A stretch of 64,000 nt of DNA. Origin: an uncultured Pelagibacteraceae bacterium. Lineage in GTDB: Bacteria > Pseudomonadota > Alphaproteobacteria > Pelagibacterales > Pelagibacteraceae. The stretch lies in the NCBI GenBank assembly GCA_902561095.1, contig CACEOF010000001.1, forward strand, positions 1 through 64,000, written 5' to 3'. The translations under genes and the position numbers were made by a program. The notes beneath the pieces were generated by a model. That model saw only the letters and a program-made list of their open reading frames with translations, was not told the DNA's origin and made no database searches. Positions 2,731 through 40,611 of the stretch are shown here, one piece after another. Every line of letters starts with the position of its first letter. The first letter of the stretch is position 1.

Positions 2731-3479
2731 TATATAACTTTTGCCTCGTTTTTTAATTTTTGAACTAGTTCAGCAACATTTGCTACTTTGATGCCAGCTT
2801 TTCTTTTTGGTGGTTCCTCAACTTTTAACTGCTGAACTCTTGGAGTGATATCAATTCCTAAATCTGAAACATTTATTTCTTCAATAGGCTTTTTCTTTGC
2901 CTTCATAATATTTGGCAATGAAGCATATCTAGGCTCATTTAATCTTAAATCACAGGTTACAATTGCTGGTATATTAATTTCAACAGTTTCAAGACCTTCA
3001 TCAATTTCTCTGGTAACCTCTAAAGAATTATCTTTTACTTCTATGTTTGATGCAAAAGTTGCTTGTGGCCAATTTAATAAAGCACTTAGCATTTGTCCTG
3101 TTTGATTACAATCATCATCAATTGCTTGTTTGCCCATAAAAACTAAATCTGGTTTTTCTTTTTCAACAATTTTTTGTAAAATTTTTGAAACAGCTAAAGG
3201 TTCCAAAACACCTTCAGTCTTTACATGAATTCCTTTATCTGCTCCAACTGCTAAAGCTTTTCTAACAGTCTCTTGAGCTTTTTCTTCTCCTACTGTTATT
3301 GCAACAATCTCTGTTGCTTTACCTGCCTCTTTTATTTTAACTGCTTCTTCAATAGCGTTATCATCAGGGGGATTAGTTGACATTTTAACATTATCTGTAA
3401 CTACACCTGATCCATCCTCTTTCACTCTTATTTGGACGTTATAATCAATTACTCTTTTTACAGCGACTAGAATTTTCAT
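2730..3479 (-). CDS. etfB: Electron transfer flavoprotein beta subunit
   Basis: MKILVAVKRVIDYNVQIRVK..., internal VFMGKQAIDDDCNQTGQM motif; TAATG-type coupling to etfA. Confidence 0.95.
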   Translation of the reverse strand: MKILVAVKRVIDYNVQIRVKEDGSGVVTDNVKMSTNPPDDNAIEEAVKIKEAGKATEIVAITVGEEKAQETVRKALAVGADKGIHVKTEGVLEPLAVSKILQKIVEKEKPDLVFMGKQAIDDDCNQTGQMLSALLNWPQATFASNIEVKDNSLEVTREIDEGLETVEINIPAIVTCDLRLNEPRYASLPNIMKAKKKPIEEINVSDLGIDITPRVQQLKVEEPPKRKAGIKVANVAELVQKLKNEAKVI

Positions 3480-5911
3480 TATGCTCTCAATAAATTATTT
3501 TCTTTATCGTATGGACTTTCTTCTAATACAGTAGCCTCATACATTTCTCCTAAGATATCAACTTGTAATTTGTCACCCACATTTGCAAAATCAGGTTTAA
3601 CCATTGCTAATGCTATTGATTTATCTAATCTAAAACCAAACTCACCCCCAGTTGCTCTTCCAACAACTTTACTGTCTTTATATATAGGGTTATTACCTAA
3701 TACATCTGCATCTTTTGTATTATGCACTTCAAGAGTAACTAATTTGTTATCAAATCCCTTCTCTCTCCATTTATTTAAAGCTTCCAATCCAATAAAATTA
3801 CCTTTGTTAGGATGAATAAATCTATCCAACCCAGATTCGTAAGGTGAATATTCAATTGATAATTCTGTACCTACAAGTTTGTATGATTTTTCTAATCTTA
3901 AACTATTCATAGCTCTTATGCCAAAAGGTTTTATTCCTAAATCCTTACCTGCATCCATTAATTTATCAAAAATATGATTTTGATACTCAATTGGGTGATG
4001 CAATTCCCACCCTAGCTCACCTACAAAATTTACTCTCATTGCATTAACTGGAGCATAACCAACATTGACCTTTTTAGCAGTTAACCATTTAAAATTTTCA
4101 TTTGAAAAATCATCTGTAGAAACTTTTTGCATTAAATCTCTGGCTTTTGGACCAGCGACCACAAGTACACCTGTACTATTAGTTAAGTCTTCAAATATAA
4201 CTGAGCCATCAGTTGGCATCCATTTTTGTATCCAATCATGATCTAATCTTAAATTTGCTCCTGCAGAAACAAGGTAATAAGAATTTTCCGCCTCTTTCAT
4301 AATTGTAAATTCTGAATGAACACCTCCTTTAGTATTTAAAGCGTGACATAAATTTATTCTGCCAATTTTTTTTGGTAATTTGTTTGCAACTAAAAAATCT
4401 AAAAATTCTTCAGCTTTAGGTCCTTTTATTCTACATTTGGCAAATGCTGTCATATCTAACAAGCCAACATTTTCCTTTACATTTTGACACTCTTTTTTAA
4501 TTGCATCGAACCATTTTGATCGTCTAAACGACCAATCATCTTTTTGTTCCATGCCATCAGTTGCAAAAAAGTTTGGTCTTTCCCAACCAAATTTTTGTCC
4601 AAAAACTGCACCCAAATTTCTCATTCTTTCATAACATGGTGCTGTTCTTAAAGGTCTTGCTGCTGGTCTTTCTTCATCAGGATAGTGAGTGATAAAAACA
4701 TGACTGTACGCTTCCTCATTTTTTGCTTTTAAGTATGATTTAGTTGCATAATTTCCATAACGTCTTGGTTCAACTCCCAACATATCAATAGTAGGTTCGC
4801 CATCTACAATCCACTCCGCTAATTGCCAACCAGCTCCACCTGCTGCAGTAATCCCAAAACTGTGTCCTTCATTAATCCAAAAATTTTTTAATCCCCACGC
4901 TGGACCAACTATTGGATTTCCATCAGGTGTGTAACAGATTGCACCATTATAAACTTTTTTTACACCAACTTCTCCAAAAGCAGGCACTCGGTGAATTGCT
5001 CCCTCAATATGTGGAGCTAATCTATCAAGATCTTCTTGAAACAATTCGTACTCTGAATTTTTTGATGGACCTTCAACATAACAAGCTGGTGCGCCATCTT
5101 CATAAGGTCCTAATATCAATCCACCTGCTTCTTCTCGCATATACCATCGACTATCACTATCCCTAAGAACTCCCATTTCAGGAAGACCTTCTTTTTTTCT
5201 CTTTTGAATTTCAGGATGAGGTTCAGTTACAATATATTGATGCTCAACTGGAATTACTGGAATATCTAAACCTACCATTTCACCAGTTTGTCTTGCAAAA
5301 TTACCAGAACATGAAATTACATGTTCACATTCAATTGAACCTTTGTCTGTTTCTACTATCCAACCGTCTTTAGTTTGTTTCATACTCATTACGGCTGTAT
5401 TTCTATAAATTTCTGCTCCTCTATTTCTTGCACCAGTTGCTAAAGCTTGAGTTAAATCAGCTGGCTGAATATATCCATCTTCTGGGTGTTGTATTGCGCC
5501 AACTAAATCATCTGTATGACACAATGGCCAAATTTCTTTTACTTGTTGAGGAGTTAAAAATTTTACATCTACTCCAATCGTTTGTGCAACACCAGCATAT
5601 TGATGATACTCATCCATTCTATCTTTTGTGCTTGCTAATCGAATATTTGAAACAACACTAAAACCAACATTCTTTCCAGTTTCTTCCTCTAAAGTTTTGT
5701 AAAGATTAACTGCGTATTTATGAAGCTGTCCGACCGAATAACTCATGTTAAACAAAGGTAATAAACCAGCTGCATGCCAAGTAGAACCTGAAGTTAGTTC
5801 TTTTCTCTCAACTAAAACAACATCTGACCAACCTTTTTTTGCTAGATGATAAAGAGCACTTACTCCTACAACCCCACCACCAACTACAACAACTTTGGTT
5901 TTTGTTTTCAT
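3479..5911 (-). CDS. Dimethylglycine/sarcosine dehydrogenase-like flavoprotein (FAD oxidoreductase + GcvT domains)
   Basis: N-terminal VVVVGGGVVGVSALYHLAKKGW (DAO fold), SGSTWHAAGLLP; C-terminal GcvT-like domain; directly upstream of etfBA. Confidence 0.88.
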   Translation of the reverse strand: MKTKTKVVVVGGGVVGVSALYHLAKKGWSDVVLVERKELTSGSTWHAAGLLPLFNMSYSVGQLHKYAVNLYKTLEEETGKNVGFSVVSNIRLASTKDRMDEYHQYAGVAQTIGVDVKFLTPQQVKEIWPLCHTDDLVGAIQHPEDGYIQPADLTQALATGARNRGAEIYRNTAVMSMKQTKDGWIVETDKGSIECEHVISCSGNFARQTGEMVGLDIPVIPVEHQYIVTEPHPEIQKRKKEGLPEMGVLRDSDSRWYMREEAGGLILGPYEDGAPACYVEGPSKNSEYELFQEDLDRLAPHIEGAIHRVPAFGEVGVKKVYNGAICYTPDGNPIVGPAWGLKNFWINEGHSFGITAAGGAGWQLAEWIVDGEPTIDMLGVEPRRYGNYATKSYLKAKNEEAYSHVFITHYPDEERPAARPLRTAPCYERMRNLGAVFGQKFGWERPNFFATDGMEQKDDWSFRRSKWFDAIKKECQNVKENVGLLDMTAFAKCRIKGPKAEEFLDFLVANKLPKKIGRINLCHALNTKGGVHSEFTIMKEAENSYYLVSAGANLRLDHDWIQKWMPTDGSVIFEDLTNSTGVLVVAGPKARDLMQKVSTDDFSNENFKWLTAKKVNVGYAPVNAMRVNFVGELGWELHHPIEYQNHIFDKLMDAGKDLGIKPFGIRAMNSLRLEKSYKLVGTELSIEYSPYESGLDRFIHPNKGNFIGLEALNKWREKGFDNKLVTLEVHNTKDADVLGNNPIYKDSKVVGRATGGEFGFRLDKSIALAMVKPDFANVGDKLQVDILGEMYEATVLEESPYDKENNLLRA

Positions 5912-10074: not shown

Positions 10075-10449
10075 CTATTTTAGTTTGCCTTCTTCTCTCA
10101 TTTTAGCTCTAATTTTTGTAGCTGATATTTTTTGAGTTTCTTCGTCTAAAACTATTTCCTCGATTTTATATCCCACTCCTCTGCCATAACAAATATTTGT
10201 AATATTTGGCACTACCATAATCTTAAACCTACCTTCAAATTCAGGGTTTAATCTATCTTCTATATTTTTTTTCACTGTATCAAAATCAAATGGATTATCA
10301 TCTACACCCTGTACATCTCTTATTTGAATACAAACTTGACCTGTTTTTTTAATAATTTCTTTAAATAATGTGTAATGACCATCATGAAATGGTTGCCATC
10401 TTCCAAGCATTTGTGCTGTTGGTTTTTTATTATCCCATTGATATTTCAT
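10075..10449 (-). CDS. Small nucleotidyltransferase (adenylyl/cytidylyltransferase-like)
   Basis: GRWQPFHDGHYTLF (HxGH) and ISATKIR (ISxTxxR) nucleotidyltransferase motifs. Confidence 0.85.
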   Translation of the reverse strand: MKYQWDNKKPTAQMLGRWQPFHDGHYTLFKEIIKKTGQVCIQIRDVQGVDDNPFDFDTVKKNIEDRLNPEFEGRFKIMVVPNITNICYGRGVGYKIEEIVLDEETQKISATKIRAKMREEGKLK

Positions 10450-10856
10450 TTTTTGATCTCCTTAACGATTTTTAAAGCCCAATTCTTAGCATCTTGAGTA
10501 GTAACATGGTAATTAAATGTTTTTGGCTTTACAAACATTTGATTTGTATCATCAAAACGTCCTTCTTTAATTGTATCTACCCAAATTATGAAGTCTGCTG
10601 GGAATATGCTTCTCGCTTCTGGAGTCGGCGCTATGAAATCTGCAATAACATAATGACCTTCACCCTTTAACTTTAGAGCAAACTTAGCCATCCTTTTTGC
10701 TTGTCTAATCCTTCCTTCTTTAGAAAAATCCCAATCATCTGCTGCTCCTCTAACTTCGTCAGCATTTAATCTTTTAGCATTTAAATAAGGTGCTATTTCA
10801 TTTGCTAGTGTTGTTTTACCTGCACCAGGTAATCCCATCACCAAAATTATTTTCAT
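10446..10856 (-). CDS. P-loop kinase, adenylylsulfate kinase (CysC)-like
   Basis: Walker A GLPGAGKTT; LNADEVR, HYVIADFIAPTPEARSIF, IWVDTIKEGRFDDTN resemble APS kinase. Confidence 0.85.
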   Translation of the reverse strand: MKIILVMGLPGAGKTTLANEIAPYLNAKRLNADEVRGAADDWDFSKEGRIRQAKRMAKFALKLKGEGHYVIADFIAPTPEARSIFPADFIIWVDTIKEGRFDDTNQMFVKPKTFNYHVTTQDAKNWALKIVKEIKK

Positions 10857-11479
10857 TTTACTTTATACAATCCTAACCAAGCATTTACATCTTTACTCGC
10901 TATGTAATCAGATTTAAAAAACTCTAATTCTTCCCAGTTATTATTTTCTTTTAAATCTAATATTTTTTTATCGAAACCATACTCCTCATAAATTCCTTCG
11001 TTAATTGTAAAACAAATTAAACCGCCAGGTTTTGTTATTCTTACAAACTCATCTAACGCATCAGATTTCACGTGTCCAAACGTAAAGGTTCCAACACACA
11101 TAACACTATCATAAAGATTATCACTTAATTCAATACGTTTGTTTAAGTCAATGTTAAATAATTTTTGATATAAATTTTTTGGTACTGTTTCTAATAATTT
11201 TTGTGAAAGATCAGCACCATGAAAGTTTTCATAACCAAATTTTCTAAGTTGTAGTCCTACTAATCCAGTTCCACATCCTGCATCAAAAAAAAGTGCATCT
11301 TTATTAACTAGATATTTTTTTATTACTTCAACAGTTTCTTTGGGACCTGTATAGTTCCATTCAACCATATCTCTATTATATTTATCTTTTTCTCCCCACT
11401 CATCATAATACCTCATCACTTCCTCGGTAGTCTTGAGTTTGTAAATTGGAACTTTATTACCCACATCTTTTAGTGCCAT
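10853..11479 (-). CDS. SAM-dependent class I methyltransferase
   Basis: ALFFDAGCGTGLVGLQLRKFGYENFHGADLS motif I. Confidence 0.85.
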   Translation of the reverse strand: MALKDVGNKVPIYKLKTTEEVMRYYDEWGEKDKYNRDMVEWNYTGPKETVEVIKKYLVNKDALFFDAGCGTGLVGLQLRKFGYENFHGADLSQKLLETVPKNLYQKLFNIDLNKRIELSDNLYDSVMCVGTFTFGHVKSDALDEFVRITKPGGLICFTINEGIYEEYGFDKKILDLKENNNWEELEFFKSDYIASKDVNAWLGLYKVK

Positions 11480-11485
11480 AAAATT

Positions 11486-12718
11486 TTATCCTATTAAATT
11501 TTGAGCTACCCATTTGTGAAATTGATGGGTTGGTTGATCCATTATTGGAGAAAAATTTCCTCCATTGTAAGCAGGTGAATTTCTACCCTCTTGCATACCT
11601 TCAACAGCATTTATATCCTCTAACATTACATCTTTCCAAAATTTTAAAATTTGTTTTCTCATTTCTTTTAATTGTTTGCCGTTTGCACTCTCTTCTCCAA
11701 CATAATACATTTGCATATGTTCTTTTGTTTTATTCATTGCTAAAGGCTCTAACCAAAAAACATAAAAATGATCTACATGTAAACCAATCATAACATTTGG
11801 GAATAGAGCTATGTATTCTGAATTTTTTGTCATACTTTTTTCCCAATTTGGAAATGTATCAAAAATTTTATTACCTTTAACAATTTGGTCATATTTTTTA
11901 CTCCCTTGACCAGCAAATCGATTTGGTAAACCTTGAATGTGATAATGATCATTTATGTTAGATACTTTATTTAACTCAGGATGAATTGTTGGCAAATGAT
12001 AGCTTTCACAATAATTTTCTATAGCAAATTTCCAATTGGTTTTTACTTCTAAGCTGAAGTACCCATAATCATTTGATTTTACTATTAACTTTTGATCGTC
12101 TTTATTTATGAATTTCGACCATCTTTCCTCAAGAGGTTTGATGTACTGGTCAAAATCCAATTCATTTGAATTAATATTTACAAATATTATATCCATCCAA
12201 AGTTTAGTTTTAACCTCTTTTAGATTGCTATTTGTTTTATTAAAGTTTGGAGACTCATGATTGTTCAGGCCACCAATGTGTGGGGTTGCAACTAACTGCC
12301 CATTAAAATTATAAGCCCAAGAATGATAAGGGCATCTAATAACGTTTTTTAACGTGCAGGCTTTATCCAAAAGTTTGAATCCCCTATGACTACAGACATT
12401 GTGAAAAACTCTCACAACCATATTTTTGTCTCTAATTAATATCAAAGGAATCCCGAGCAGATTGTAAGGTTTAACATCTCCAATTTTTGGAATTGAGCTT
12501 CCAACCCCAATTGCTGTCCATTTATTGTAAAAAATTTTTTCCTTTTCATGAGCTAAATAGTCTTGATTTGTATAGCACTCATTAGGTAAGCCATTTGCCA
12601 CTTCTATCGGCTTGTCTACATTGTTGATTTTTTCAATATCTAGTATCTTTGATAAGGGTAGATTTTTAAGATTCTGATGCACAAAAAAAATTATCATTCG
12701 CATAAATTTTGGCAACAA
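11486..12718 (-). CDS. Rieske non-heme iron oxygenase alpha subunit (aromatic ring-hydroxylating/choline-betaine type)
   Basis: Rieske motif CSHRGFKLLDKACTLKNVIRCPYHSW; catalytic ENYCESYHLPTIHPEL. Start may lie downstream of the first Met. Confidence 0.9.
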   Translation of the reverse strand: MLPKFMRMIIFFVHQNLKNLPLSKILDIEKINNVDKPIEVANGLPNECYTNQDYLAHEKEKIFYNKWTAIGVGSSIPKIGDVKPYNLLGIPLILIRDKNMVVRVFHNVCSHRGFKLLDKACTLKNVIRCPYHSWAYNFNGQLVATPHIGGLNNHESPNFNKTNSNLKEVKTKLWMDIIFVNINSNELDFDQYIKPLEERWSKFINKDDQKLIVKSNDYGYFSLEVKTNWKFAIENYCESYHLPTIHPELNKVSNINDHYHIQGLPNRFAGQGSKKYDQIVKGNKIFDTFPNWEKSMTKNSEYIALFPNVMIGLHVDHFYVFWLEPLAMNKTKEHMQMYYVGEESANGKQLKEMRKQILKFWKDVMLEDINAVEGMQEGRNSPAYNGGNFSPIMDQPTHQFHKWVAQNLIG

Positions 12719-12783: not shown

Positions 12784-13512
12784 ATGAATTTTTCTCTAGA
12801 AATTGGACCAAAGACAGATGTTGATGCGGTCCCTGCATTAAGAGATGTTTACATCACTATGTTGCCAGGTGGAGATTATAGAGAAACTGCTGAAAAGGCC
12901 TCTGAACTTGTTAGAAAAGGATTTAATCCAGTACCCCACTTCCCGGCTCGATCGATGCAAGATGAGAAGGAACTTAAAGATTATGTTTCTAGATGTAAGG
13001 ACGGTGGAGTTAAGCAAGTTTTAATTATTGGTGGTGGTAGAGAGCCTGCAGGAAAATTTGACAGTTCATTTCAACTTTTAGAAACAGGATATTTCGAAAA
13101 AATGAAAATAGGAATAGCTGGACATCCTGAAGGAAGTCCTGATATATCCGACTCAGAATTAGAAAAAGCTATGATAGATAAAAAGCCTTATGCTGATTAT
13201 ATCGTAACTCAATGGTTACTTGATCCTCAGCCTATTATAGATTTTATTTCTAAACAAAGCGTACCAGTGCATGTTGGAATTACTGGGCCATTAAAAATAT
13301 CTAGCTTAATCAAGTTTGCTAATATTGTTGGGGCAAAAAATTCTATTAACTTTCTTAAATCTAATTTTACTAAGGCGTTAGATTTATTGAAACCTAAAGA
13401 CCCTAATGATTTAATTGGGAAAGTTAAATCGCATACTGATAACTTCCACATTTATACATTCGGCGGCTTGAAGGAAACTAACAAGTGGTTGAAGGAGAAT
13501 AGTTATGTCTAA
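12784..13512 (+). CDS. Methylenetetrahydrofolate reductase-family protein
   Basis: FNPVPHFPARSMQDEKELKDYV...VLIIGGGREPAG; TIM-barrel MTHFR-like; overlaps next gene by 8 nt. Confidence 0.85.
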   Translation: MNFSLEIGPKTDVDAVPALRDVYITMLPGGDYRETAEKASELVRKGFNPVPHFPARSMQDEKELKDYVSRCKDGGVKQVLIIGGGREPAGKFDSSFQLLETGYFEKMKIGIAGHPEGSPDISDSELEKAMIDKKPYADYIVTQWLLDPQPIIDFISKQSVPVHVGITGPLKISSLIKFANIVGAKNSINFLKSNFTKALDLLKPKDPNDLIGKVKSHTDNFHIYTFGGLKETNKWLKENSYV

Positions 13513-14863
13513 TGAATTTGACTACACTAAATTAAAACATGTTACCTCTGTTGATCAATCAGACAGAGAAGTACCGTACAATTTACGACAAAGTGGGCCA
13601 ACAAAAGTTGAAATGTTAATTTCAACAAGAGTGAGAAAATCACCGTATTGGCATTTATCAATGCAAGCAGGATGTTGGAGAGCAACTGTCTATAATCGTA
13701 TTTATCATCCAAGAGGTTATGTAAAACCTGAAGATGGTGGTGCAATGGTAGAATATGATGCAATTGTTAATCATGTAACTATGTGGAATGTTGCTGTTGA
13801 AAGACAAATAAGAGTAAAGGGTCCTGATGCAGAAAAATTTACTGATTATGTAATCACACGAGATGCAACTAAAATTTCTCCAATGAGAGCAAGGTATGTA
13901 ATTTTATGTAATGCTTATGGAGGTGTCTTAAACGATCCAATTCTATTAAGAATTTCTGAAGATGAATTTTGGTTTTCTTTATCAGATTCTGATATTGGAA
14001 TGTATTTGCAAGGCGTAAATGCGGATGGAAGATTTAATTGCACAATAGAAGAGATAGATGCATGTCCAGTGCAAATCCAAGGACCTAAATCAAAAGCTTT
14101 AATGAAAGACCTTTGTGGAGATCAAGTAGACTTTGATAACATGCCTTTTTATGGATTAGCTGAAGCAAATATAGGGGGAAGAAGTTGTGTTATTTCACAG
14201 TCTGGTTTTTCTGGTGAGGCTGGTTATGAAATATATTTAAGAAATGCAACTTTATATGCTGAAGATATGTGGAATTCTGTTCTTAAGGCAGGAAAAAAAC
14301 ATAACCTCATGGTTATTGCACCAGCACACCATAGAAGAATTCAAGCAGGTATTCTTTCTTGGGGACAAGACATGGACCAGCAACATAATCCTTTTCAGTG
14401 TAACCTAGGATATCAAGTTTCTTTATCTGGAAAAGGAGAGTGGAATAAAAAAGGAGATTATGTAGGAAAATCAGCTTTAGAAAAAATGAAAGCAGATCTT
14501 GTTGATGGAAAAAAACCGTATAAGCTCCAATTAGTTGGTTTAGAGTTTGGTGGTAAACCAATTGAAGATTATGCACCTGATTTTTGGTTAGTTTCCCCTG
14601 AAAGTGGTGGTGAACCTGTTGGATTTATTACATCTCCTTGGTATCATCCTGAAAAAAAACAAAACATTGCAATGGGATATGTGCCATTTGATGGAACTCT
14701 AAATGCGAATGGTTTTCCAAAAGGTAAGGTTGGGACAAAATTTAGAGTTCACTTACCTGAACAATACTCTGAAAAAGCTGGAGTTCCAGTTGACGCAGTA
14801 GTAGTTGATATTCCATTTAAAGAGTCTTTTAACGCTAACACAAGAGAAGTTGTAAAAGGCTAA
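13505..14863 (+). CDS. GcvT-family tetrahydrofolate-dependent aminomethyltransferase/demethylase (DmdA/LigM-like, substrate unknown)
   Basis: GcvT features: VKGPDAEKFTDYVITRD, VQIQGPKSKALM, VISQSGFSGEAGYEIYL; coupled to MTHFR. Confidence 0.85.
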   Translation: MSNEFDYTKLKHVTSVDQSDREVPYNLRQSGPTKVEMLISTRVRKSPYWHLSMQAGCWRATVYNRIYHPRGYVKPEDGGAMVEYDAIVNHVTMWNVAVERQIRVKGPDAEKFTDYVITRDATKISPMRARYVILCNAYGGVLNDPILLRISEDEFWFSLSDSDIGMYLQGVNADGRFNCTIEEIDACPVQIQGPKSKALMKDLCGDQVDFDNMPFYGLAEANIGGRSCVISQSGFSGEAGYEIYLRNATLYAEDMWNSVLKAGKKHNLMVIAPAHHRRIQAGILSWGQDMDQQHNPFQCNLGYQVSLSGKGEWNKKGDYVGKSALEKMKADLVDGKKPYKLQLVGLEFGGKPIEDYAPDFWLVSPESGGEPVGFITSPWYHPEKKQNIAMGYVPFDGTLNANGFPKGKVGTKFRVHLPEQYSEKAGVPVDAVVVDIPFKESFNANTREVVKG

Positions 14864-14905: not shown

Positions 14906-15016
14906 ATGACAAAATGGTTTTTAATTGTAATTTGCATTACTATTGCGATTGCTTTAATAATATTTCCTTTGATAGTTTCTTATAAAGCACAAAAAAATAA
15001 AAAGAATAGAAAGTAA
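14906..15016 (+). CDS. Small membrane protein, 36 aa (MTKWFLIVICITIAIALIIFPLIVSYKAQKNKKNRK)
   Basis: ATG 14906, stop TAA 14014+1000 (15014-15016) overlapping the next ATG (TAATG); one TM helix plus basic tail. Not in supplied ORF track. Confidence 0.5.
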   Translation: MTKWFLIVICITIAIALIIFPLIVSYKAQKNKKNRK

Positions 15017-15561
15017 TGTTTGGAGAATTTTTAAATATAATTGTCAGATCAATAAAATTAGACAAAACACTTTATTCAGATAATAAAAATTTTGCTGAAG
15101 CCTCAATTTATTTTGCAGGTATTATAATGATTTTAGATGGTATAGCTGGAGCAGTTGCAGCAAATACAATCATTAAAACTGCAATTGCAATGTCTGGCCT
15201 TACTGCAATTATTACTTGGTTGGTTTGGGCAATTTTTATTTATGTTATTGGTGTAAAACTTTTTCCAGATAAACAAACAAAAGTTTCATTTAGAAAAGTT
15301 TTAACTGCAGTTGGTTATGCTCATGCTCCAGGATTACTAAGATTTTTTGCAGTAACACCAGACTTAATGATACCAATAATTTTTCTTACCCAATTTTGGA
15401 TATTTGCTGGTTTAATTATTTCTACGAAACAAATTCTAAATTTAAAATCTAATTTTAAGTCTTTTGGAATTATTCTTTTATCTTTCCTAATTATAGCACT
15501 TTTGTCTATTTCATTTGTTATGAGTAGAATGAATATGTTGCCGGTTAATCAAATAAGCTAA
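15016..15561 (+). CDS. Yip1-domain-like multi-spanning membrane protein
   Basis: TM-rich; FRKVLTAVGYAHAPGLLRFFAVTPDL motif as in YIP1-family proteins. Confidence 0.7.
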   Translation: MFGEFLNIIVRSIKLDKTLYSDNKNFAEASIYFAGIIMILDGIAGAVAANTIIKTAIAMSGLTAIITWLVWAIFIYVIGVKLFPDKQTKVSFRKVLTAVGYAHAPGLLRFFAVTPDLMIPIIFLTQFWIFAGLIISTKQILNLKSNFKSFGIILLSFLIIALLSISFVMSRMNMLPVNQIS

Positions 15562-15725
15562 AGTGGAAAAATAGTTTTAGAAATCCTACAAGATTTACAA
15601 AGTTTAAACCCTGTCATGATCAGATTTTGAAATACACTTTCATCTTCTTTTCTGCATTCATCACATATATTGTTCAAGTCGTTACTATCCTTATCTTTAA
15701 TATCTTTTTCTAAATCTTTAGTCAT
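15558..15725 (-). CDS. 55-aa double-CxxC (zinc-ribbon-like) protein
   Basis: MTKDLEKDIKDKDSNDLNNICDECRKEDESVFQNLIMTGFKLCKSCRISKTIFPL*; start overlaps the DUF3726-like stop by 8 nt. Not in supplied ORF track. Confidence 0.6.
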   Translation of the reverse strand: MTKDLEKDIKDKDSNDLNNICDECRKEDESVFQNLIMTGFKLCKSCRISKTIFPL

Positions 15726-16329
15726 TATCTGTTAAACCTGCTCCAGCAGCACCTTTTTTTAGACTATCAGTTTCTTCCACAAAAGTATTTTCAGATAATT
15801 TATATAAACTGTTCCATTCATCTTGATTAAAGTTATCTTTATTTTCAATAAAATTGATCTCTAAGTTTTTAGAATAATTAGGAAATCCTATATTTAAAAA
15901 GTTAGAGTAAATATTTATGTTAGAATTTAATAAAATTTCTTTCTCTTCAAATTTAACTTTAATTTTTTTTCCAATTATTTCTGAAGATCTGCTCAAAAAT
16001 GATAAAAAAATAATTGGGTAGGCAATGTTCGAGAAATAAATTTTTTCGTAATTTTCGATTATTTTTATTTGATCTAAAAAACTAATTCCTAAAATGATTG
16101 GGCAATAAGGATTTGAAGAAGAAGAATTTGACTGATTTATTGAACTTAAGTTCTCATACGTATTTTTTTTCTTATCATTAAAATAAGAGTTTAAATGTTT
16201 GATACCGGGTAAACCAAACATCTCTAATTGTCTTATACATTTTCCAATTTCCTCAGCTTCACCCCATGAAAATCCAGCAGCTTTTGATGCTCTTTTAGCT
16301 GTAGTTTCAATCTCGCTTAAGGATTTCAT
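15718..16329 (-). CDS. DUF3726-like conserved hypothetical protein
   Basis: N-terminus SLSEIETTAKRASKAAGFSWGEAEEIGKCIRQLEMFGLPGI resembles DUF3726. Confidence 0.7.
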   Translation of the reverse strand: MKSLSEIETTAKRASKAAGFSWGEAEEIGKCIRQLEMFGLPGIKHLNSYFNDKKKNTYENLSSINQSNSSSSNPYCPIILGISFLDQIKIIENYEKIYFSNIAYPIIFLSFLSRSSEIIGKKIKVKFEEKEILLNSNINIYSNFLNIGFPNYSKNLEINFIENKDNFNQDEWNSLYKLSENTFVEETDSLKKGAAGAGLTDND

Positions 16330-16332
16330 TTT

Positions 16333-17994
16333 TTAATTACTTGACCTATAGACCCATTGTTCGTCATAGTTTTTTAATTCATCAGGTAGTGGTGCTCCTT
16401 GGAACATACAAATTCTTAACCATTTATCTGATCGTGGATCAAATTTTAAGGCTCCAAAAAAAGATAGCTTTAACCTTAGCATATCTATAGGCATTAGATT
16501 TTTACCAATAGTATTATCTTGTATCTCAGAGTATGGAAATTTTTCAACAATAAATACTCTTCTAACAATGTGTCTAAGCTCAGAATTTTTAGACAAAAAT
16601 TCTGCAACAGTAGAATTATTTTTCATATCTAATAATTTTTTATGCAGTTTTTTTACATCTCTAGCTATTGCAAGAGGTTGTTCTAATTCAGATCCGCCTT
16701 CTTTAAATCTATCAGCTAATCTAGGCTCCTCTTTATTCTTAGAAATAAACCAAAAATTTTGTGTATTTTGTTTTTTTTCAAAGTTTATTTTTAAAATATT
16801 TGAATATTTTTTTTCAATAATATTGATTAAATCTTTAATTGTTCTGTTAGTTGGAATAGTAAAATATTTATCCTCCTCAGAACTCATCTGACTTACTAAC
16901 GGATTAGTTATTTCATTATATGGTTCCATCATAATAGAAACTACATACTCAATACACTCCTCACATGCTTTCTCCTCTAACCAAAGATATATTTGGTTAA
17001 AAGGGTATTCGTCTTCAAAATCAAAATTATTATCAATAAAGTGGATAAATTTTTTTATATCTTTTAATAGGTTTTTAATTTTAATTTTCTGATACTCACT
17101 ATCAGTATTCCAGCTAGTAATGTTTGTTAAAGATTTTTTAAGGCAATCAATAAATAAAACACTATCTTTTTTCTTAACTATTTTTATTTCTCTTATTTTT
17201 TTTAAGGCGATCTCTCTGCTCATTACCCAATTATTCAATAAGGTTGGATGATTTACTATAAATGGAGCCATGCCTAATCCAGTAGAATTTCCAATACCTA
17301 AATTTTTACAAATCTTTCTATCTAATACAACAGATTTACTGGGATTTTTGTGATGAGCAACGTGGTTTACTTGATCAAATGTAAATTGCCTAACTAAATA
17401 AACTAGCATCATTTCCAATCTAAAAGGTCCATTGATTTCTTCTCTGTTCTTAATTCTAAAACGATCCGCTAAGCCAAATTTTCCAGAACCATATACTGCA
17501 GTTGTTCTGTACAAATATCCAACATTTGATAGTAATTCTAAATCTGGTTGTTTACCCTCACTTAATCTTTCAACTACATGATTGAATACTCGAACAGATT
17601 TATTTGCTCTAGACAATGTTAACTCTTTAAATGAAAGTCTACCAACTTCCTGCCTTGGTACTTCATTTTTAAGTCTATCAATATCTTTTTGAGTAGGAAC
17701 ACCATCATGTAATGTAAATGCTGCATCCCATTTTGTTGCAATTACTCTATCTGATCTTTCGTCATCTTTAATTTTATTTGCAAAACAAACAAGTGAATAA
17801 GTTCTTTTATCTTTCTTAAAAGAGTAGACTGCTTCTCCATAACCAAATCTATCTAGATTAAATAAATCTCTCTTATATTCCCAGTCTTTAAATTCATTAA
17901 GAAAGCTTCTTAAAAAAGACAGTTTAGACTGATGAAATGATCCCAATCTTGACAATTTCATTATCGTGTTTGGATCTCTAAGTTGAACTTTCAT
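16333..17994 (-). CDS. Large uncharacterised protein (553 aa)
   Basis: Long ORF in tight array with neighbours; no recognised motif. Confidence 0.8.
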   Translation of the reverse strand: MKVQLRDPNTIMKLSRLGSFHQSKLSFLRSFLNEFKDWEYKRDLFNLDRFGYGEAVYSFKKDKRTYSLVCFANKIKDDERSDRVIATKWDAAFTLHDGVPTQKDIDRLKNEVPRQEVGRLSFKELTLSRANKSVRVFNHVVERLSEGKQPDLELLSNVGYLYRTTAVYGSGKFGLADRFRIKNREEINGPFRLEMMLVYLVRQFTFDQVNHVAHHKNPSKSVVLDRKICKNLGIGNSTGLGMAPFIVNHPTLLNNWVMSREIALKKIREIKIVKKKDSVLFIDCLKKSLTNITSWNTDSEYQKIKIKNLLKDIKKFIHFIDNNFDFEDEYPFNQIYLWLEEKACEECIEYVVSIMMEPYNEITNPLVSQMSSEEDKYFTIPTNRTIKDLINIIEKKYSNILKINFEKKQNTQNFWFISKNKEEPRLADRFKEGGSELEQPLAIARDVKKLHKKLLDMKNNSTVAEFLSKNSELRHIVRRVFIVEKFPYSEIQDNTIGKNLMPIDMLRLKLSFFGALKFDPRSDKWLRICMFQGAPLPDELKNYDEQWVYRSSN

Positions 17995-17996
17995 AA

Positions 17997-18962
17997 CTAA
18001 ATTAATTTATAGAAATTGTACCAGTTGTTTCCAAGTATTCCATTTGTCTCTTCATCAGAAAATCCTACTTTTTTAAGACCTTTTTCGATATTTGAAAACC
18101 CCCTTGCGTCTTCAAACCATTTAGGTTGTTTGGGAAAGCCAGGTTTATTTTTATTACCTTCACCAAAATTTATACGTTTAGACCATGTTCCATTTCTCAT
18201 CCATTCAACAACACTATCAGGTTGCTGAAGGCAAAGATCAGATCCGATACCTATTTGTTTTGTGTTCATTATTTCAGCTGTCTTAGCAACCATCTCACAA
18301 AAACTTTCGAGGGTACAATTTGAGTTATCTTTCAAATGATGAGGATATAAAGATAATCCAAGAATACCTCCGCTATCACTTAAAATTTTTAACAAATCAG
18401 ATGATTTGTTTCTTTTTGCAGGATGCCAAAAATTTGGGTTTGCATGGGTTATTGCTATTGGTTTTTGACTTAACTCGATTGCATCAATTGTACTTTTTTC
18501 AGCTGAATGTGACATGTCAATTACTACACCCACCCTATTCATTTCTTTTATGACTTCACGTCCAAAATTGGTAACTCCACTGTCTGTATTTTCATAACAA
18601 CCAGTAGCTAATAATGATTGGTTGTTGTAAGTAAGCTGCATAAATCGGCAACCTAGTTTATGTATCTTTTCAACTAATTTTATATCATCCTCTATGGGAG
18701 AACAATTTTGAAAACCAAAAAAAATTGCTGTTTTTTTCTCTTTATTTGCCTTTTCTATATCTTTGTAGTCCCAGCCTTGAAATATTATATCTGAGTTTTC
18801 TTTAAAAAGTTTTTCCCATTTTTTAATCTCAGTTAATAACTCATTGTAGTCTTCATGATAGACTATGGTGACATGAACAGCATCAAGACCTGCAGATCTA
18901 TTAAACTCTAAGGTTTCTCTTGACCAATTACAATATTGAAGGTTATCAATTTTAAAATTCAT
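17997..18962 (-). CDS. Membrane (renal) dipeptidase-like, peptidase M19
   Basis: VVIDMSHSAEKSTIDAIELSQKPIAITHANP and IGIGSDL metal-ligand regions. Confidence 0.9.
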   Translation of the reverse strand: MNFKIDNLQYCNWSRETLEFNRSAGLDAVHVTIVYHEDYNELLTEIKKWEKLFKENSDIIFQGWDYKDIEKANKEKKTAIFFGFQNCSPIEDDIKLVEKIHKLGCRFMQLTYNNQSLLATGCYENTDSGVTNFGREVIKEMNRVGVVIDMSHSAEKSTIDAIELSQKPIAITHANPNFWHPAKRNKSSDLLKILSDSGGILGLSLYPHHLKDNSNCTLESFCEMVAKTAEIMNTKQIGIGSDLCLQQPDSVVEWMRNGTWSKRINFGEGNKNKPGFPKQPKWFEDARGFSNIEKGLKKVGFSDEETNGILGNNWYNFYKLI

Positions 18963-24040: not shown

Positions 24041-24628
24041 TTACTTTCCTATATAGCCAAATTCTAAAGATGAATCTGTTATTGAATGATATAGTGACTC
24101 TCCAAAACTTCTTAGAACAAAAATTCTAAATGTATCAGGTTTGTCATTTATCATGTCAACAATTATAGATATTCCATTAAATGCAGAATTCAGACAATTA
24201 TTTTTATAAAATTCATTAAAGTTGAAAGGGCATCCTTTTTTTAAAACTTCTTTAGCATAATGACCCTCTAGCTCAATAATTGATTTTGAATGAGAAATAT
24301 CTGTGACTGCAAAATCCTCCTCTTGAAATTTTTTTTCGATTTCAGAAAATACCTCTTTTTTAGTTGTTATAATTAGCCAATTTCTTGGTCCATTCCAAAG
24401 AATTCGAGTATTTTCATTACTTTGTACTGATAATGGTCTTGAACTTAGGTTAAGATTATTTATTTTAATTTCCTCATATACAACATTAGAATTTTTATAT
24501 TGGACAATCTGAGTAATATATAATTTTTTTATTTCTGTAATTTTAATTAAATTTTTTTCGTTTTTTCCTTCACAATCGCCAAATTGTCCTTTTTGGTGGA
24601 TATGTTCTAAAGCTGATGTTGAACTCAT
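24041..24628 (-). CDS. soxG: Heterotetrameric sarcosine oxidase gamma-type subunit
   Basis: SRPLSVQSNENTRILWNGPRNWLII; last gene in B-D-A-G order. Confidence 0.85.
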   Translation of the reverse strand: MSSTSALEHIHQKGQFGDCEGKNEKNLIKITEIKKLYITQIVQYKNSNVVYEEIKINNLNLSSRPLSVQSNENTRILWNGPRNWLIITTKKEVFSEIEKKFQEEDFAVTDISHSKSIIELEGHYAKEVLKKGCPFNFNEFYKNNCLNSAFNGISIIVDMINDKPDTFRIFVLRSFGESLYHSITDSSLEFGYIGK

Positions 24629-27621
24629 GATCTAACTCTTTCTCCTTTTGGATCCACATAATGTGATGAGACTATTTCAACTGGAATTACTTTATTTTTT
24701 AATGGAGACATAACAAATAATTTTTCTCCGATCATATTTTTTCCATCCTTCAAAATCGCAAGAGAAAAAGGATTGTCATGTTCTACACTCCAGCATGAGG
24801 CAGATATATGACCTAATTTTTTGTTTGGTAAAGGAGCCTGAGCGTCTTTCACTAAATGAGAACCTTCTGGTATGCTTGTTTTTTTATCTAGAGGTACAAC
24901 TCCGACAATCTTTTGTCTGTCACTTGAGGTAAAAGCTTCTCTATTCAAAGACCTTTTGCCAATAAAATCTTTCTTTTTACTAATTAATCCCTCTAATGAA
25001 GTATCGTAAGAAATAGTTCTTCCATCAAGTTCTGATCCTGCCACATGTCCCATTTCAATTCTTAAAGTTGATAATGCTTCTGTTCCGTAAGGTTGCACTT
25101 GAAGCTCTTGACCCAGTTCAATTATTTTTTCCCACATAAAGAGACCATTGTCAGACTCTACATTTACTTCATAAGCTAATTCACCTGAAAATGAGATTCT
25201 AAAAATTCTAGCTTTAACCCCAAACAATTCAGACTCCATGTAGCCCATGAAAGGCAGTCCTTCGTTTGAAACGTCATTATTAGGAAATAATTTTTCTAAT
25301 AATTTTCTAGATTTAGGTCCTGCAATTGCTGCACCAGCCCATTGTTCAGTTGTTGAAACTACATTAACATTCAATTCAGGCCAAACAAGTTGTAGATAAT
25401 ACTCTAAATGTGAAAGGACATTCGCAGCTTGAGCTGTAGTAGTTGTCATATGATAATGATTTTCAGAAATTCTAGTTGTTGTTCCATCATCCATAACTAT
25501 TCCATCTTCTCTAAGCATCACTCCATATCTTGCTTTACCAACTGGCAACTTTAACCAAGCATTTGTGTAAACTCTATTTAGCAGTTCTGCAGCATCAGGA
25601 CCTTTTATATCAATTTTTCCTAACGTGGTAACATCACAAACACCAACATTCGTTCTAACATTTTTAGCTTCACGCTTAGATGCTTCAAAAAGAGTTTCAC
25701 TTCCTTGTTTATAATATCTTGGTCTTAACCAAACTCCAGCATCAACAAATACTGCGTTATTTTTTTCATGCCATGAATGCATAGGAGATTTGCGAGTAGG
25801 TTTAGAATGTTTTCCAACTTCTCTTCCTACAATTGCTCCAATAGATATTGGAGTGTATGGAGGTCTAAAAGTGGTATGACCTACTGCAGGTACAACTTTA
25901 TTTTCAATATCTGAAACTAATTGCAGTCCATTCAAATTACTTGTTTTACCTTGGTCGGTTGCCATTCCTAAAGTTGTGTATCTTTTAACATGCTCTATTG
26001 ATCGATACCCTTCCTTTAAAGCTATTTCGATATCTGAAACAGCAACATCATTTTGAAAATCTAAAAATCTCTTATAACTTTTTCCTTTAGGCAGGGGCAC
26101 ACACCAAAACTTATCATGTTGAGAAGATTTTTTTTCAACTACATTTGGAAAAGAAATTTTATTATCGTTGTTTGTAATCTTTTTCGATAAATCTTGGCCA
26201 GCTATAAACGAGTCTTTTAACGTTTCTTCTAATGTAAAAATCCCATTAGCAGCACCTAAAGTTGTTTCTTTCTGCTTAGATGTCCCAGGCACAAAGGCGT
26301 CAATTTCTTCCTTAAATTTAGTTTTATTTCCTGACTGTGAAGCTAGATGAATAGTTGGTGTCCAAAAACCTGAAACACAAATACAATCACACTTAATATT
26401 TTCAATTGTTCCAAGTTGCTTTTTATCATCTGAAATTTTTGCTATATCTGCTGAACTTACTTTTTTATATCCCTGTGCAGCAACAACAACATGCGAAAAT
26501 TTTATTTTAATACCAAGATTAATTGCTTCATCAATTATTTCTGATTGTGGATTAACTCTAGAGTCTAAAATAATTGGATTGACTCCATTTTTTTTAAATT
26601 CAATTGCTGTCTCATATCCACTGTCATTATTTGTAAAAACTAACGGATTTTTACCGACCAACACTCCGTAAACTTTTAAGTATTCTTTTGCTGCTGAGGA
26701 CAACATCACGCCAGGAGTATCATTATTACCAAAAACTAGTGGCCTTTCGATTGATCCTGAAGAAATTAAAACCTCTTTTGCCCTAATATACCAAAGTCTT
26801 TGTTTTGGATGATGTTTTTTTGTTTTTGGTAGATGATCGCTAACTTTTTCTGACATCACTAACATATTATGATCATAGTACCCAAAAACTTGAGATCTAT
26901 TTTTAACAACCACATTTGGCATTTCTTTTAATTCAGAAATAATACTGTTTGCCCAATCCTCACCTGATTGATTTCCAATATTTACATCACTAGTTAACAG
27001 AGATCCTCCAAATCTTGGTTTATCTTCAGCTAAAATTACTCTTGCACCATTTTTTGCAGCCGCATAAGCACTTGCTAAACCGGATGGACCAGAACCAGCA
27101 ATTAATAAGTCACAATATTCATATTTATGTTCATATCTCTCTTTATCATGTTTTGTAGAAGCAACACCTAAGCCTGCAGCTTTTCTAATAAAAGGTTCAT
27201 AAACTCGATACCAAAAACTTTTAGGCCACATGAAAGTCTTGTAATAAAATCCTGCAGGTAGAAAAATTTTTAAAAAGTTATTAATTGCACCAATATCAAA
27301 GTTTACACTTGGCCAACAATTTACACTTTTGGCTTCTAGTCCTTCAAAAAGCTCTTGCTCAGTAGCTTTAATGTTTGGCTCTGTCTCATTATTTCTATAA
27401 AGCTGAACTATTGCATAAGGCTCATCTACCCCAGCTCCAAAAAACCCTCTTGGTCTATGATATTTAAAGCTTCTACCAATTAAATGTACTCCATTAGCAA
27501 TTAAAGCAGATGCTAAAGTATCTCCTTCGTAACCATAGTATGTTTTTCCATTAAATTTAAATGACAATTTTTTATCCCTATTAATTAGTCCACCATTTTC
27601 TAATCTAAATTTTTGAGACAT
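24625..27621 (-). CDS. soxA: Heterotetrameric sarcosine oxidase alpha-type subunit (NAD-binding + GcvT domains)
   Basis: 998 aa; GDTLASALIANGVHLIGRSFKYHRPRGF; LLIAGSGPSGLASAYAAAK; GcvT-like C-terminus with GRTISYDTSLEGLISKKKDFIGKRSL. Confidence 0.9.
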   Translation of the reverse strand: MSQKFRLENGGLINRDKKLSFKFNGKTYYGYEGDTLASALIANGVHLIGRSFKYHRPRGFFGAGVDEPYAIVQLYRNNETEPNIKATEQELFEGLEAKSVNCWPSVNFDIGAINNFLKIFLPAGFYYKTFMWPKSFWYRVYEPFIRKAAGLGVASTKHDKERYEHKYEYCDLLIAGSGPSGLASAYAAAKNGARVILAEDKPRFGGSLLTSDVNIGNQSGEDWANSIISELKEMPNVVVKNRSQVFGYYDHNMLVMSEKVSDHLPKTKKHHPKQRLWYIRAKEVLISSGSIERPLVFGNNDTPGVMLSSAAKEYLKVYGVLVGKNPLVFTNNDSGYETAIEFKKNGVNPIILDSRVNPQSEIIDEAINLGIKIKFSHVVVAAQGYKKVSSADIAKISDDKKQLGTIENIKCDCICVSGFWTPTIHLASQSGNKTKFKEEIDAFVPGTSKQKETTLGAANGIFTLEETLKDSFIAGQDLSKKITNNDNKISFPNVVEKKSSQHDKFWCVPLPKGKSYKRFLDFQNDVAVSDIEIALKEGYRSIEHVKRYTTLGMATDQGKTSNLNGLQLVSDIENKVVPAVGHTTFRPPYTPISIGAIVGREVGKHSKPTRKSPMHSWHEKNNAVFVDAGVWLRPRYYKQGSETLFEASKREAKNVRTNVGVCDVTTLGKIDIKGPDAAELLNRVYTNAWLKLPVGKARYGVMLREDGIVMDDGTTTRISENHYHMTTTTAQAANVLSHLEYYLQLVWPELNVNVVSTTEQWAGAAIAGPKSRKLLEKLFPNNDVSNEGLPFMGYMESELFGVKARIFRISFSGELAYEVNVESDNGLFMWEKIIELGQELQVQPYGTEALSTLRIEMGHVAGSELDGRTISYDTSLEGLISKKKDFIGKRSLNREAFTSSDRQKIVGVVPLDKKTSIPEGSHLVKDAQAPLPNKKLGHISASCWSVEHDNPFSLAILKDGKNMIGEKLFVMSPLKNKVIPVEIVSSHYVDPKGERVRS

Positions 27622-27890: not shown

Positions 27891-29147
27891 TTAAGATATC
27901 CAGGTCTTAGTACCAAGTCCTTTTTCGTCAATTAAGCGTCCAGTGCTAAATCGATTTAGACTAAATCCAGCATTCAGTTCGTGAACTCTATCTTGAGCGA
28001 TTGTATGAGCGAATGTCCAACCTGAAGCTGGCGTTGCTTTAAAACCACCATAACACCAACCGCAGTTTAAATACAAACCATCAATATGTGTTTTATCTAT
28101 AATAGGTGAACCATCCATTGACATATCCATTATACCACCCCAAGTTCTAAGCATTTTCAATTTACTTAAAAAAGGCATCATCGCAATTCCCTCTGTTAAA
28201 ACATGTTGAAGAGTTGGTAAATTTCCTCTTTGAGCGTAACTATTATATCCATCTAGGTCTCCGCCCATTACCATTTCTCCTTTGTCAGATTGACTTATAT
28301 AAAAATGACCTGCACCAAAAGTTACTACTCTATCTAATATTGGTTTAACAGGCTCTGATACACATGCTTGAAGAAGGTGAGTTTCTATTGGCAAAGTCAT
28401 ATTTAACTTTTCAGCTAAAATATTTGTGCTTCCAGCAACACATAATCCAACTTTTTTAGTTTTTATATTTCCTCGAGATGTTCTTATGCCATTAATCTTA
28501 CCTGCTGTAACATCAAAACCAGTTACTTCACAATTTTGAATAATATCAACACCCATAGAGTCTGCTTGACGCGCGTATCCCCAAGCAACTGCATCGTGTC
28601 TTGCTGTACCTGCACTTGGCTGCATTAATCCACCAAAAATTGGAAACCTTACATCTTCTGAAAAGTCAGCCATTGGAATTATTTCTTTTACTTGTTCACG
28701 GTTTAATAAAACAGCATCAATTCCGTTTAATCTCATCGAATTTCCTCGTCTTGCATAGGCATTCATTTGTGCATCGGAGTGTGCAAGATTGATAATTCCT
28801 CTTGGTGAGAACATCACATTATAGTTCAAATCTTGGCTCATTTTTCTCCACAGATCCATTCCAAATTCACTGAAGAGAGCGTTTTCATCATGCATGTAAT
28901 TTGATCTAATTATCGTTGTGTTTCTTCCGACGTTTCCGCCACCTATCCAACCTTTTTCAATAATTGCAACTTTTGTAATGTTATGTTCTTTTGCGAGGTA
29001 ATATGCAGTGGCAAGTCCATGGCCCCCTCCACCAATAATGACTACATCATATTCCTCTTTTGGAGTTGGATCCTTCCAAGCTAAATCCCAGTTTTCATGA
29101 TTAGAAAATGCGTTTTTAACTAAATTAAATATGGAGTATTTTTGCAT
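27891..29147 (-). CDS. soxB: Heterotetrameric sarcosine oxidase beta-type subunit
   Basis: VVIIGGGGHGLATAYYLAKEHN; GGGNVGRNTTIIRSNY; first gene of B-D-A-G cluster. Confidence 0.92.
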   Translation of the reverse strand: MQKYSIFNLVKNAFSNHENWDLAWKDPTPKEEYDVVIIGGGGHGLATAYYLAKEHNITKVAIIEKGWIGGGNVGRNTTIIRSNYMHDENALFSEFGMDLWRKMSQDLNYNVMFSPRGIINLAHSDAQMNAYARRGNSMRLNGIDAVLLNREQVKEIIPMADFSEDVRFPIFGGLMQPSAGTARHDAVAWGYARQADSMGVDIIQNCEVTGFDVTAGKINGIRTSRGNIKTKKVGLCVAGSTNILAEKLNMTLPIETHLLQACVSEPVKPILDRVVTFGAGHFYISQSDKGEMVMGGDLDGYNSYAQRGNLPTLQHVLTEGIAMMPFLSKLKMLRTWGGIMDMSMDGSPIIDKTHIDGLYLNCGWCYGGFKATPASGWTFAHTIAQDRVHELNAGFSLNRFSTGRLIDEKGLGTKTWIS

Positions 29148-29275: not shown

Positions 29276-30961
29276 ATGAGTGATGTTAAATCAGATATTC
29301 AAATAGCTCGAGAAGCAAAAATGCAGCCTATAAATCAGGTATTAGCAAAGATAAATGTTCCAGACAAAAGCACTGCTTTCAGTCCAATGGGACGACACAT
29401 TGCAAAAATTAACCTAGAGTATTTAGACACATTGAAAGATAAATCAGAAGGGAAATTAATTTTAGTCACTGCAATTACACCTACACCTGCTGGAGAAGGA
29501 AAAACCACTACTTCAGTTGGTTTAAATGATGGATTAAATAAAATTGGAAAAAAATCTATAGTTTGTTTAAGAGAGCCAAGTCTTGGGCCTTCATTTGGAA
29601 TGAAAGGTGGTGCTGCTGGAGGAGGTTATGCTCAAGTAGTTCCAATGGAACAAATTAATTTACATTTTACTGGAGATTTTCATGCAATTACTTCAGCTCA
29701 TAATCTATTGTCAGCATTAATCGACAATCATATCTATTGGGGAAACAAATTAGATATAGATTTAAGACGGATTGTTTGGAAAAGAGTAATGGATATGAAC
29801 GACCGTTCCTTAAGATCAATAAATATAAATTTAGGTGGAGTAGCAAATGGTTTTCCTAGAGAAGACGGATTTGATATTACTGTTGCTTCAGAAATCATGG
29901 CAATTTTCTGCTTATCAAATGATTTAAAGGATCTAGAAAAAAGAATTGGTAATATAACAATTGCTTATACGAGAGATAAGAAACCAGTTTACGCGAAAGA
30001 CTTGAAAGCACACGGTCCAATGACTGTATTATTAAAAGATGCAATCAGACCAAATGTAACCCAAACATTGGAAAATAATCCTGCAATTATTCATGGTGGC
30101 CCATTTGCAAATATCGCACATGGATGTAACTCAGTTATAGCAACTAAAACTGGATTAAAACTTGCAGACTATGTTGTAACAGAAGCAGGCTTTGGTGCTG
30201 ACCTCGGAGCAGAAAAGTTTTTAGATATAAAATGCAGAAAATCTAATTTGAAACCGAGTTGTGTAGTCATCGTAGCAACAATCAGAGCTTTAAAAATGCA
30301 TGGTGGTGTTGCAAAGGATGATTTAAAAAATGAAAATGTTGAGGCTTTAAAAAAAGGTCTAGTGAATCTTGAAAGACACATAGAAAATGTTAAAAAATTT
30401 GGATTACCTGTTGCGATCGCGGTTAATCATTTTATTAAAGATACAGATAGTGAAGTTAAAGCTTTAATTGATTTTTGTGAAAACTTAGGGGTTAAAGCAA
30501 GTTTATGCACTCACTGGGCAAATGGTAGTGAAGGGACAAAAGAATTAGCAGCGCATGTTGCTAATTTGTGTGAAAAAAAAGATGCTAAGTTTAATTTTCT
30601 TTATGAAAGTAAAACGCCTTTATTTAAAAAAATAGAAACGATTGCAAAAGAAATTTATAGAGCTGATGAAGTAATTGCTGATACAAAAATAAGAGATCAA
30701 TTAAAAGGTTTTGAGGAGGCAGGCTATGGAGAATTGCCAATTTGTGTAGCAAAAACACAATACAGTTTTTCAACTGATCCAAATCTTAAAGGTGCACCAA
30801 CTGGACATGCTTTGCCTATTAGAGAAATTAGACTATCGTCAGGTGCAGAATTTATTGTTGTTGTTTGTGGGTCAATTATGACTATGCCAGGACTGCCCCG
30901 TGTACCTGCAGCAGACTCTATAAAACTAAATGATAAGGGCGATATCGAAGGATTATTTTAG
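29276..30961 (+). CDS. fhs: Formate-tetrahydrofolate ligase
   Basis: [60 protein letters not shown]. Confidence 0.97.
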
Positions 30962-40576: not shown

Positions 40577-40611
40577 ATGGTCACAATAAAAATTATAATA
40601 AAGCGTTGATC

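Follow-up and report, generated by a model that had tools for sequence, protein, structure and literature searches.

The two overlapping genes at positions 12784–14863 of the window, by which we mean the whole 64,000-nt stretch of Pelagibacteraceae DNA that was analysed, probably encode a two-step methyl-oxidation unit made up of a glycine betaine demethylase, termed G452, and an oxidatively working MTHFR. The reading sets out from the observed gene pair, the family, clade and residue pattern of its second protein, and the neighbourhoods and co-occurrence of its genes; we infer glycine betaine as the substrate and methyl transfer as the catalytic step of G452. The features of the pair are as follows.

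12784..13512, + strand: MTHFR homologue, 242 aa (PF02219; closest solved relative 7xg9; no second match in its own genome)

13505..14863, + strand: G452, a GcvT-family, DmdA-like protein of 452 aa (PF01571; clade support 99/96; N143-D144-P145, F235, E242 and Y244), proposed as THF-dependent glycine betaine demethylase

13505..13512, + strand: 8-nt overlap of the MTHFR and G452 ORFs, identical in 78/78 SAR11 loci

In the proposed route, G452 would demethylate glycine betaine (N,N,N-trimethylglycine) once and load the methyl onto N5 of tetrahydrofolate (THF), giving dimethylglycine and 5-methyl-THF in a direct, redox-neutral transfer like that of DmdA on DMSP. The overlapping MTHFR would convert 5-methyl-THF to 5,10-methylene-THF, available for serine/glycine synthesis or formate oxidation, and dimethylglycine would be degraded further by dimethylglycine and sarcosine dehydrogenases. 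G452 would be, in this role, a B12-free and oxygen-free functional replacement of MtgB/C/D and GbcAB. The initial annotation had described a THF-dependent demethylase of the DmdA/LigM type that feeds an oxidative MTHFR, with the methyl donor left open. The enzymatic part of that description gained support from the clade of G452, E242/Y244, the N-D-P motif and the 7xg9 match; the donor can be narrowed down, since co-occurrence statistics and the genes around G452 in several lineages both point to glycine betaine.

Both ORFs were recovered with the 8-nt overlap that had been described. The exact overlap was found in all 78 SAR11 loci with a detectable MTHFR (80 loci fetched from a genome scan, Pelagibacteraceae proteins being 92–99% identical), which suggests that the two genes are translationally coupled, and among 61 related genomes, the majority incomplete, 52 have G452. 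With the overlap recurring and G452 widely kept in relatives, the arrangement is no chance event. Pfam analysis assigned the MTHFR ORF to PF02219 (25.3 bits, cut-off 24) and G452 to GCV_T (PF01571, E 5.8e-39) with an additional sub-threshold GCV_T_C barrel. The lack of glycine-cleavage H and P partners was confirmed, as gcvH and gcvP were absent among the neighbouring ORFs checked, which carry other annotations (Rieske oxygenase, SAM methyltransferase, a Pfam-less ORF, DUF3726 and M19 dipeptidase). Riboswitch control of the pair was searched for and gave no Rfam match within the window.

The pair is not new. Sun et al. (2011) listed SAR11_1265, related to DmdA and located beside metF (SAR11_1264), as an aminomethyltransferase without an assigned substrate, and named SAR11_1253 as dimethylglycine dehydrogenase and SAR11_1285 as formate-THF ligase (PMC3160333). 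The window repeats this gene order with homologues at 3479–5911, 12784–14863 and 29276–30961, so that by synteny its pair is near-certainly orthologous to SAR11_1264/1265. Both genes of the pair fall together in stationary-phase Pelagibacter (PMC5069961). The literature searched, with few subscription papers covered, yielded no later functional work on the pair, and the literature found held no earlier proposal of glycine betaine as its substrate. The gene pair had been noticed before, and most likely consists of a GcvT-derived, THF-dependent demethylase of glycine betaine and an MTHFR oxidising methyl-THF.

G452 lies outside the DmdA family as defined by model NF009133, scoring 226 bits at a cut-off of 410; other G452 members reached 245–270 bits and the deep branch L152 337 bits. 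This bears out the impression that G452 is not a canonical DmdA, and a true DmdA is encoded elsewhere in the source genome (L003, 546–547 bits), as are a DmdA paralogue (L002, 393 bits, slightly below the cut-off) and a GcvT (L008). Scores likewise placed G452 outside LigM/DesA (35 bits at a cut-off of 580, and 40 at 800) and outside GcvT (148 bits at a cut-off of 300, and 132 at 236). The PF06253 domain of the MTTB family (betaine:corrinoid methyltransferases), to which MtgB belongs, was absent, Pfam giving GCV_T and GCV_T_C alone. A maximum-likelihood tree of 43 sequences revealed G452 to be one clade (99/96), with DmdA plus paralogue as sister (whole group 96/93). The DmdA clade (100/100) is separate from G452, LigM forms its own 100/100 branch, and G452 stands apart from GcvT, DMGDH, SoxA, Tdm and LigM. 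Phylogeny against DmdA, LigM, GcvT and DMGDH, on which the initial annotation had made its reading depend, thus put G452 on a branch of its own outside the DmdA clade. As for the THF-binding residues, whose absence the initial annotation had counted against its reading, the folate-site motif of G452 retains its conserved Glu (E242) and Tyr (Y244). G452 as DmdA, LigM or GcvT was ruled out by scores, clade and, for GcvT, the catalytic residue. The greater length compared with typical DmdA was confirmed as an N-terminal extension of about 40 residues, which is kept out to Haloarchaea, where G452 reaches 51–57% identity. The DmdA paralogue clade, a further GcvT-type group, includes L042 and L043 (7971–9113) as well as L002 of the source genome; in roseobacters, genes for OsmC, an enoyl-CoA hydratase and an acyl-CoA synthetase line up with the paralogue gene.

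Alignment revealed N143-D144 in every G452 row and P145 in all except L128. Asn at the position of the GcvT catalytic Asp, which we take to be D97 in E. coli and D101 in human, is common to G452, DmdA and the DmdA paralogue (N-D-P vs D-D in GcvT). This replacement makes it likelier that G452 transfers a methyl group directly than that it handles methylene groups. An aminomethyltransferase of the glycine-cleavage or dimethylglycine type, acting on methylene groups and lying next to MTHFR for some other reason, would share the fold and the folate-binding domain and would suit the adjoining dimethylglycine enzymes; given that every G452 row shows DmdA's Asn at the site of the catalytic Asp, and given a separate GcvT (L008) in the genome and an MTHFR that would be superfluous, we regard it as very unlikely. 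The Trp of DmdA, presumably W197, was dropped as a marker of DMSP use, roseobacter DmdA having Tyr and the deepest G452 branch (L140) Trp at that site, for which reason F235 of G452 is only suggestive as substrate indicator. The member in genome G076 branches deeply, at 52% identity, has Trp where others have F235 and lies apart from any DMGDH gene; its function may therefore differ. An AlphaFold model of G452 (mean pLDDT 61, shallow alignment) was usable for the fold, not for the pocket; Foldseek with this moderate-confidence model retrieved 3tfh and 1wos at 1e-26 or better, with DmdA (3tfh) as best match. The GCV_T folate-binding domain and fold are present in G452, as evident from PF01571 and from Foldseek on the same moderate-confidence model.

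For the partner protein, the closest solved relative was 7xg9 (5e-33), which we take to be S6MTHFR of Sphingobium SYK-6, vs 5e-4 for the canonical Thermus MTHFR. In strain SYK-6, S6MTHFR is reported to oxidise the 5-methyl-THF made by LigM (PMC12585457). The source genome (G000) gave one match to the MTHFR protein, namely the protein itself. Since MetE, MetH and MtgBCDE are reported absent from SAR11 (PMC12478193), no biosynthetic outlet for 5-methyl-THF is known in this group; this speaks for the oxidative direction, and from these relationships we infer that the MTHFR runs oxidatively on 5-methyl-THF. MTHFR homologues adjoin G452 in SAR11 and its sister family and in genomes G090, G319, G307, G469 and G503, and were found a few kb from G452 on 7/7 haloarchaeal plasmids searched. 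A reverse reaction, in which methyl-THF from a reductive MTHFR serves to methylate dimethylglycine or another acceptor, has to be considered in that sequence does not reveal direction and canonical MTHFR is reductive; it is highly improbable, as the clusters hold genes for deaminases of catabolic type, for formate dehydrogenase and for formate-THF ligase, and as the closest solved MTHFR is oxidative if 7xg9 is S6MTHFR.

The window holds further genes of the proposed pathway.

3479..5911, − strand: FAD/GcvT-domain fusion of 810 aa, dimethylglycine/sarcosine dehydrogenase type (DMGDH type), the probable next pathway step; in the class sample, 8 genomes have homologues ≤10 kb from G452

24625..27621, − strand: SoxA-type subunit alpha of sarcosine oxidase or N-methylglutamate dehydrogenase (TIGR01372, 1317 vs 1164 bits)

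27891..29147, − strand: SoxB-type subunit beta (TIGR01373, 674 vs 529 bits)

29276..30961, + strand: formate-THF ligase homologue, a later C1-oxidation step (57–58% identity to the ligases of L151 and L153–L155)

The ligase genes of L151 and L153–L155 also match an annotated haloarchaeal formate-THF ligase at 48–49%. The SAR11 DMGDH gene lies 3.5–9.3 kb from the pair, with a variable region between; among the 57 loci whose upstream sequence reached far enough, 24 had it at >80% identity.

Outside SAR11, a DMGDH-type fusion homologue, recognised by mutual similarity and FAD/GcvT architecture, was close to G452 in 10 of 14 loci fetched, and sarcosine oxidase, serine deaminases and folate C1 genes also occur in these neighbourhoods. 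At L144 and L157, one strand carries G452, MTHFR, the DMGDH type, a 173-aa ORF, SoxA, a 116-aa ORF and SoxB, an order that reads as a full route from glycine betaine to glycine. Gammaproteobacterial loci L153–L155 hold formate-THF ligase, a regulator, L-serine dehydratase and a DMGDH-like gene; the L153 regulator combines DJ-1/PfpI and AraC, presumably the architecture of GbdR as well. Haloarchaeal megaplasmids carry varying sets of genes for DMGDH-like protein, SHMT, threonine/serine ammonia-lyase, MTHFR, FolD, formate-THF ligase, FDH, DHFR and BCCT transporters. The betaine neighbourhood was absent at two haloarchaeal orthologues (L041 and L128; Haloarcula sp. GH36 and H. halophila), and two MTTB homologues share a Halomicrococcus plasmid with G452, which counts against the glycine betaine reading. 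No corrinoid partner of G452 was seen in the loci examined. At L146 (8345–10930), the G452 frame of G088 runs on over 861 open codons, which may reflect a fusion or an upstream read-through.

Instead of glycine betaine, the substrate could be a different quaternary amine (choline, carnitine, proline betaine, TMAO, trigonelline or homarine), the dimethylglycine genes then serving glycine betaine further downstream. Choline and carnitine feed into glycine betaine, BCCT carriers accept several such compounds, and some clusters contain AstE-like, creatininase and nitrilase homologues of unassigned role. Conversion of choline and carnitine to glycine betaine proceeds without methyl loss, so that the cell would require a further enzyme to demethylate betaine, of which G135, G346 and G180 showed no sign; for TMAO the window encodes a dedicated enzyme, and the literature search on homarine yielded nothing usable. 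We consider such a substrate unlikely. The window's TMAO demethylase (Tdm) homologue is encoded at 40606–42951 (+ strand) and scored 1077 bits at a cut-off of 1100.

To assess co-occurrence, an even draw of 289 Alphaproteobacteria was used, in which G452 (threshold E 1e-100) was counted in 13 genomes, a DMGDH-type homologue in 100, MTTB in 61 and GbcA-like proteins in 21, the latter being relatives with 0 matches over the curated GbcA cut-off. A DMGDH homologue was present in 13/13 G452 genomes vs 100/289 overall (Fisher p 6e-7, genomes counted as independent), and the association stands without G076 (12/12). Within the 100 DMGDH genomes, G452 and MTTB share 1 genome where ~8 are expected (p 5e-5, genomes again counted as independent); this genome is G307, with a distant MTTB (8.6e-78). 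G452 and GbcA-like proteins share 0 of the 100, and MTTB and GbcA-like proteins overlap freely (14 genomes). Families with both genome kinds, f30, f66 and f17 among them, revealed that G452 and MTTB swap at close range. Within 10 kb of the 53 DMGDH genes that share about 50% identity or more with that of the window, the matches listed comprised at least 20 MTTB, 8 G452 and 0 cases of both, and divergent neighbours <600 bp from DMGDH included at least 6 MTTB and 3 G452 genes. G452 and MTTB are thus nearly mutually exclusive and occupy the same place beside DMGDH. Against the glycine betaine reading count the distant MTTB of G307, the 23 of 100 DMGDH genomes without any of the three systems tested, and G088 and G180, where DMGDH is on another contig or distant from G452. 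In G135, G346 and G180, which have G452 and DMGDH, no MTTB or GbcA match was obtained at the thresholds used and a stand-alone PF02574 protein was absent (MetH-length frames alone in G135 and G346, nothing at E 1e-10 in G180); G452 is therefore the only candidate found for the first demethylation in these genomes.

The same sample bears on a role in DMSP degradation, with DMSP, methylmercaptopropionate (MMPA) or oxidised DMSP as substrate. DmdA plus paralogue is the sister clade of G452, removal of the second DMSP methyl was suggested by Sun et al. (PMC3160333), and the M19-DUF3726 cassette beside the SAR11 pair adjoins dmdA on one Phaeobacter plasmid. True DmdA was found in 7 of the 13 G452 genomes and was absent over the cut-off in 6; G244 and G318 have the paralogue alone, and neither protein was detected at E 1e-110 in four (G135, G346, G307 and G076). 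A step after DmdA should not occur so independently of DmdA, which disfavours the follow-on role. In addition, no dmdBCD-like cluster was seen in annotated G452 neighbourhoods, and MMPA degradation in SAR11 is described as proceeding by DmdB/DmdC, then to methanethiol (PMC5069961). We judge a DMSP-related function to be improbable.

Glycine betaine agrees with the report that SAR11 oxidises the methyl groups of this compound to CO2 (PMC3160333). Counting against it, SAR11 also has a PF02574 protein, probably BHMT and a second route, to which Sun et al. assigned glycine betaine demethylation, and the same authors proposed SAR11_1303, near opuABC, for glycine betaine (PMC3160333).

Several further genes surround the pair. 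A Rieske ring-hydroxylating oxygenase is encoded at 11486–12718 (− strand), divergent from metF and 65 bp off, with homologues in 59/80 SAR11 loci, often elsewhere in the locus. It was rejected as GbcA and left out of the unit because of its weak GbcA score (127 bits vs 670) and variable SAR11 position. Three tightly packed ORFs at 10075–11479 (− strand) were judged by eye to be nucleotidyltransferase-like and P-loop-kinase-like for the first two, the third being of SAM-methyltransferase type; SAR11 homologues are variably placed. Directly downstream of G452 in 77/80 SAR11 loci is a hydrophobic-looking 181-aa ORF (15016–15561, + strand) without Pfam or NCBIfam hit. The cassette at 15718–18962 (− strand) of DUF3726, a 553-aa protein without Pfam hit and M19 dipeptidase is beside the pair in most SAR11 loci. 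Its homologues (25%, 45% and 59% identity) likewise form a cassette, which adjoins dmdA in Phaeobacter pPGA1_262. In other roseobacters, genes of similar annotation accompany those for BCCT carriers, sarcosine oxidase and Rieske proteins, and the cassette seems to be connected with methylated osmolytes.

Glycine betaine is an abundant marine osmolyte, and BHMT, the sole assignment of its first demethylation in SAR11, links this step to methionine synthesis. A 2025 paper called the first demethylation in marine bacteria elusive until then and described a cobalamin system that roseobacters and further groups carry and Pelagibacteraceae lack (PMC12478193); in haloarchaea, dimethylglycine oxidases and BCCT carriers had been noticed with the first enzyme missing (PMC3102087). 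If the proposal is true, SAR11 could draw energy from betaine methyls independently of methionine production, the role of a gene pair noticed in 2011 would be explained, and the same first-step gap in haloarchaea would be filled. The chances are about even for the wider claim that G452 is a new class of THF-dependent glycine betaine demethylase, working without B12, oxygen or homocysteine in SAR11, other marine Alpha- and Gammaproteobacteria and Haloarchaea, that it replaced MtgB gene for gene, and that it is a main entry of betaine methyl into surface-ocean C1 oxidation.

Compared with known systems, SAR11_1264/1265 belong to the same organism clade and have the same adjacency; Sun et al. guessed at the second DMSP methyl, here glycine betaine is proposed. 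DmdA (NF009133; PDB 3tfh) is like G452 in GcvT fold, N-D-P motif and presumed THF acceptor and is its top sequence and fold match, but differs in clade and in the about 40 N-terminal residues that G452 has in addition, core G452 members scoring 226–270 bits (cut-off 410) and neighbouring dimethylglycine genes, not dmdBCD. LigM with S6MTHFR in SYK-6 follows the same logic of a T-protein-derived THF demethylase and a methyl-THF-oxidising MTHFR (PMC12585457), whereas G452 lies outside the LigM clade and scores 35 bits at the LigM cut-off of 580, and no aromatic-degradation genes are near G452. MtgB/C/D (PF06253; PMC12478193) would share with G452 the net reaction and shares the position beside a dimethylglycine dehydrogenase gene; its Pfam family is unrelated, and MTTB is corrinoid-dependent. 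GbcAB and BHMT are, like the proposed G452, routes from glycine betaine to dimethylglycine, built from unrelated protein families: GbcAB is oxygen-dependent and releases formaldehyde, and BHMT uses homocysteine as acceptor, unlike G452, for which THF is proposed.
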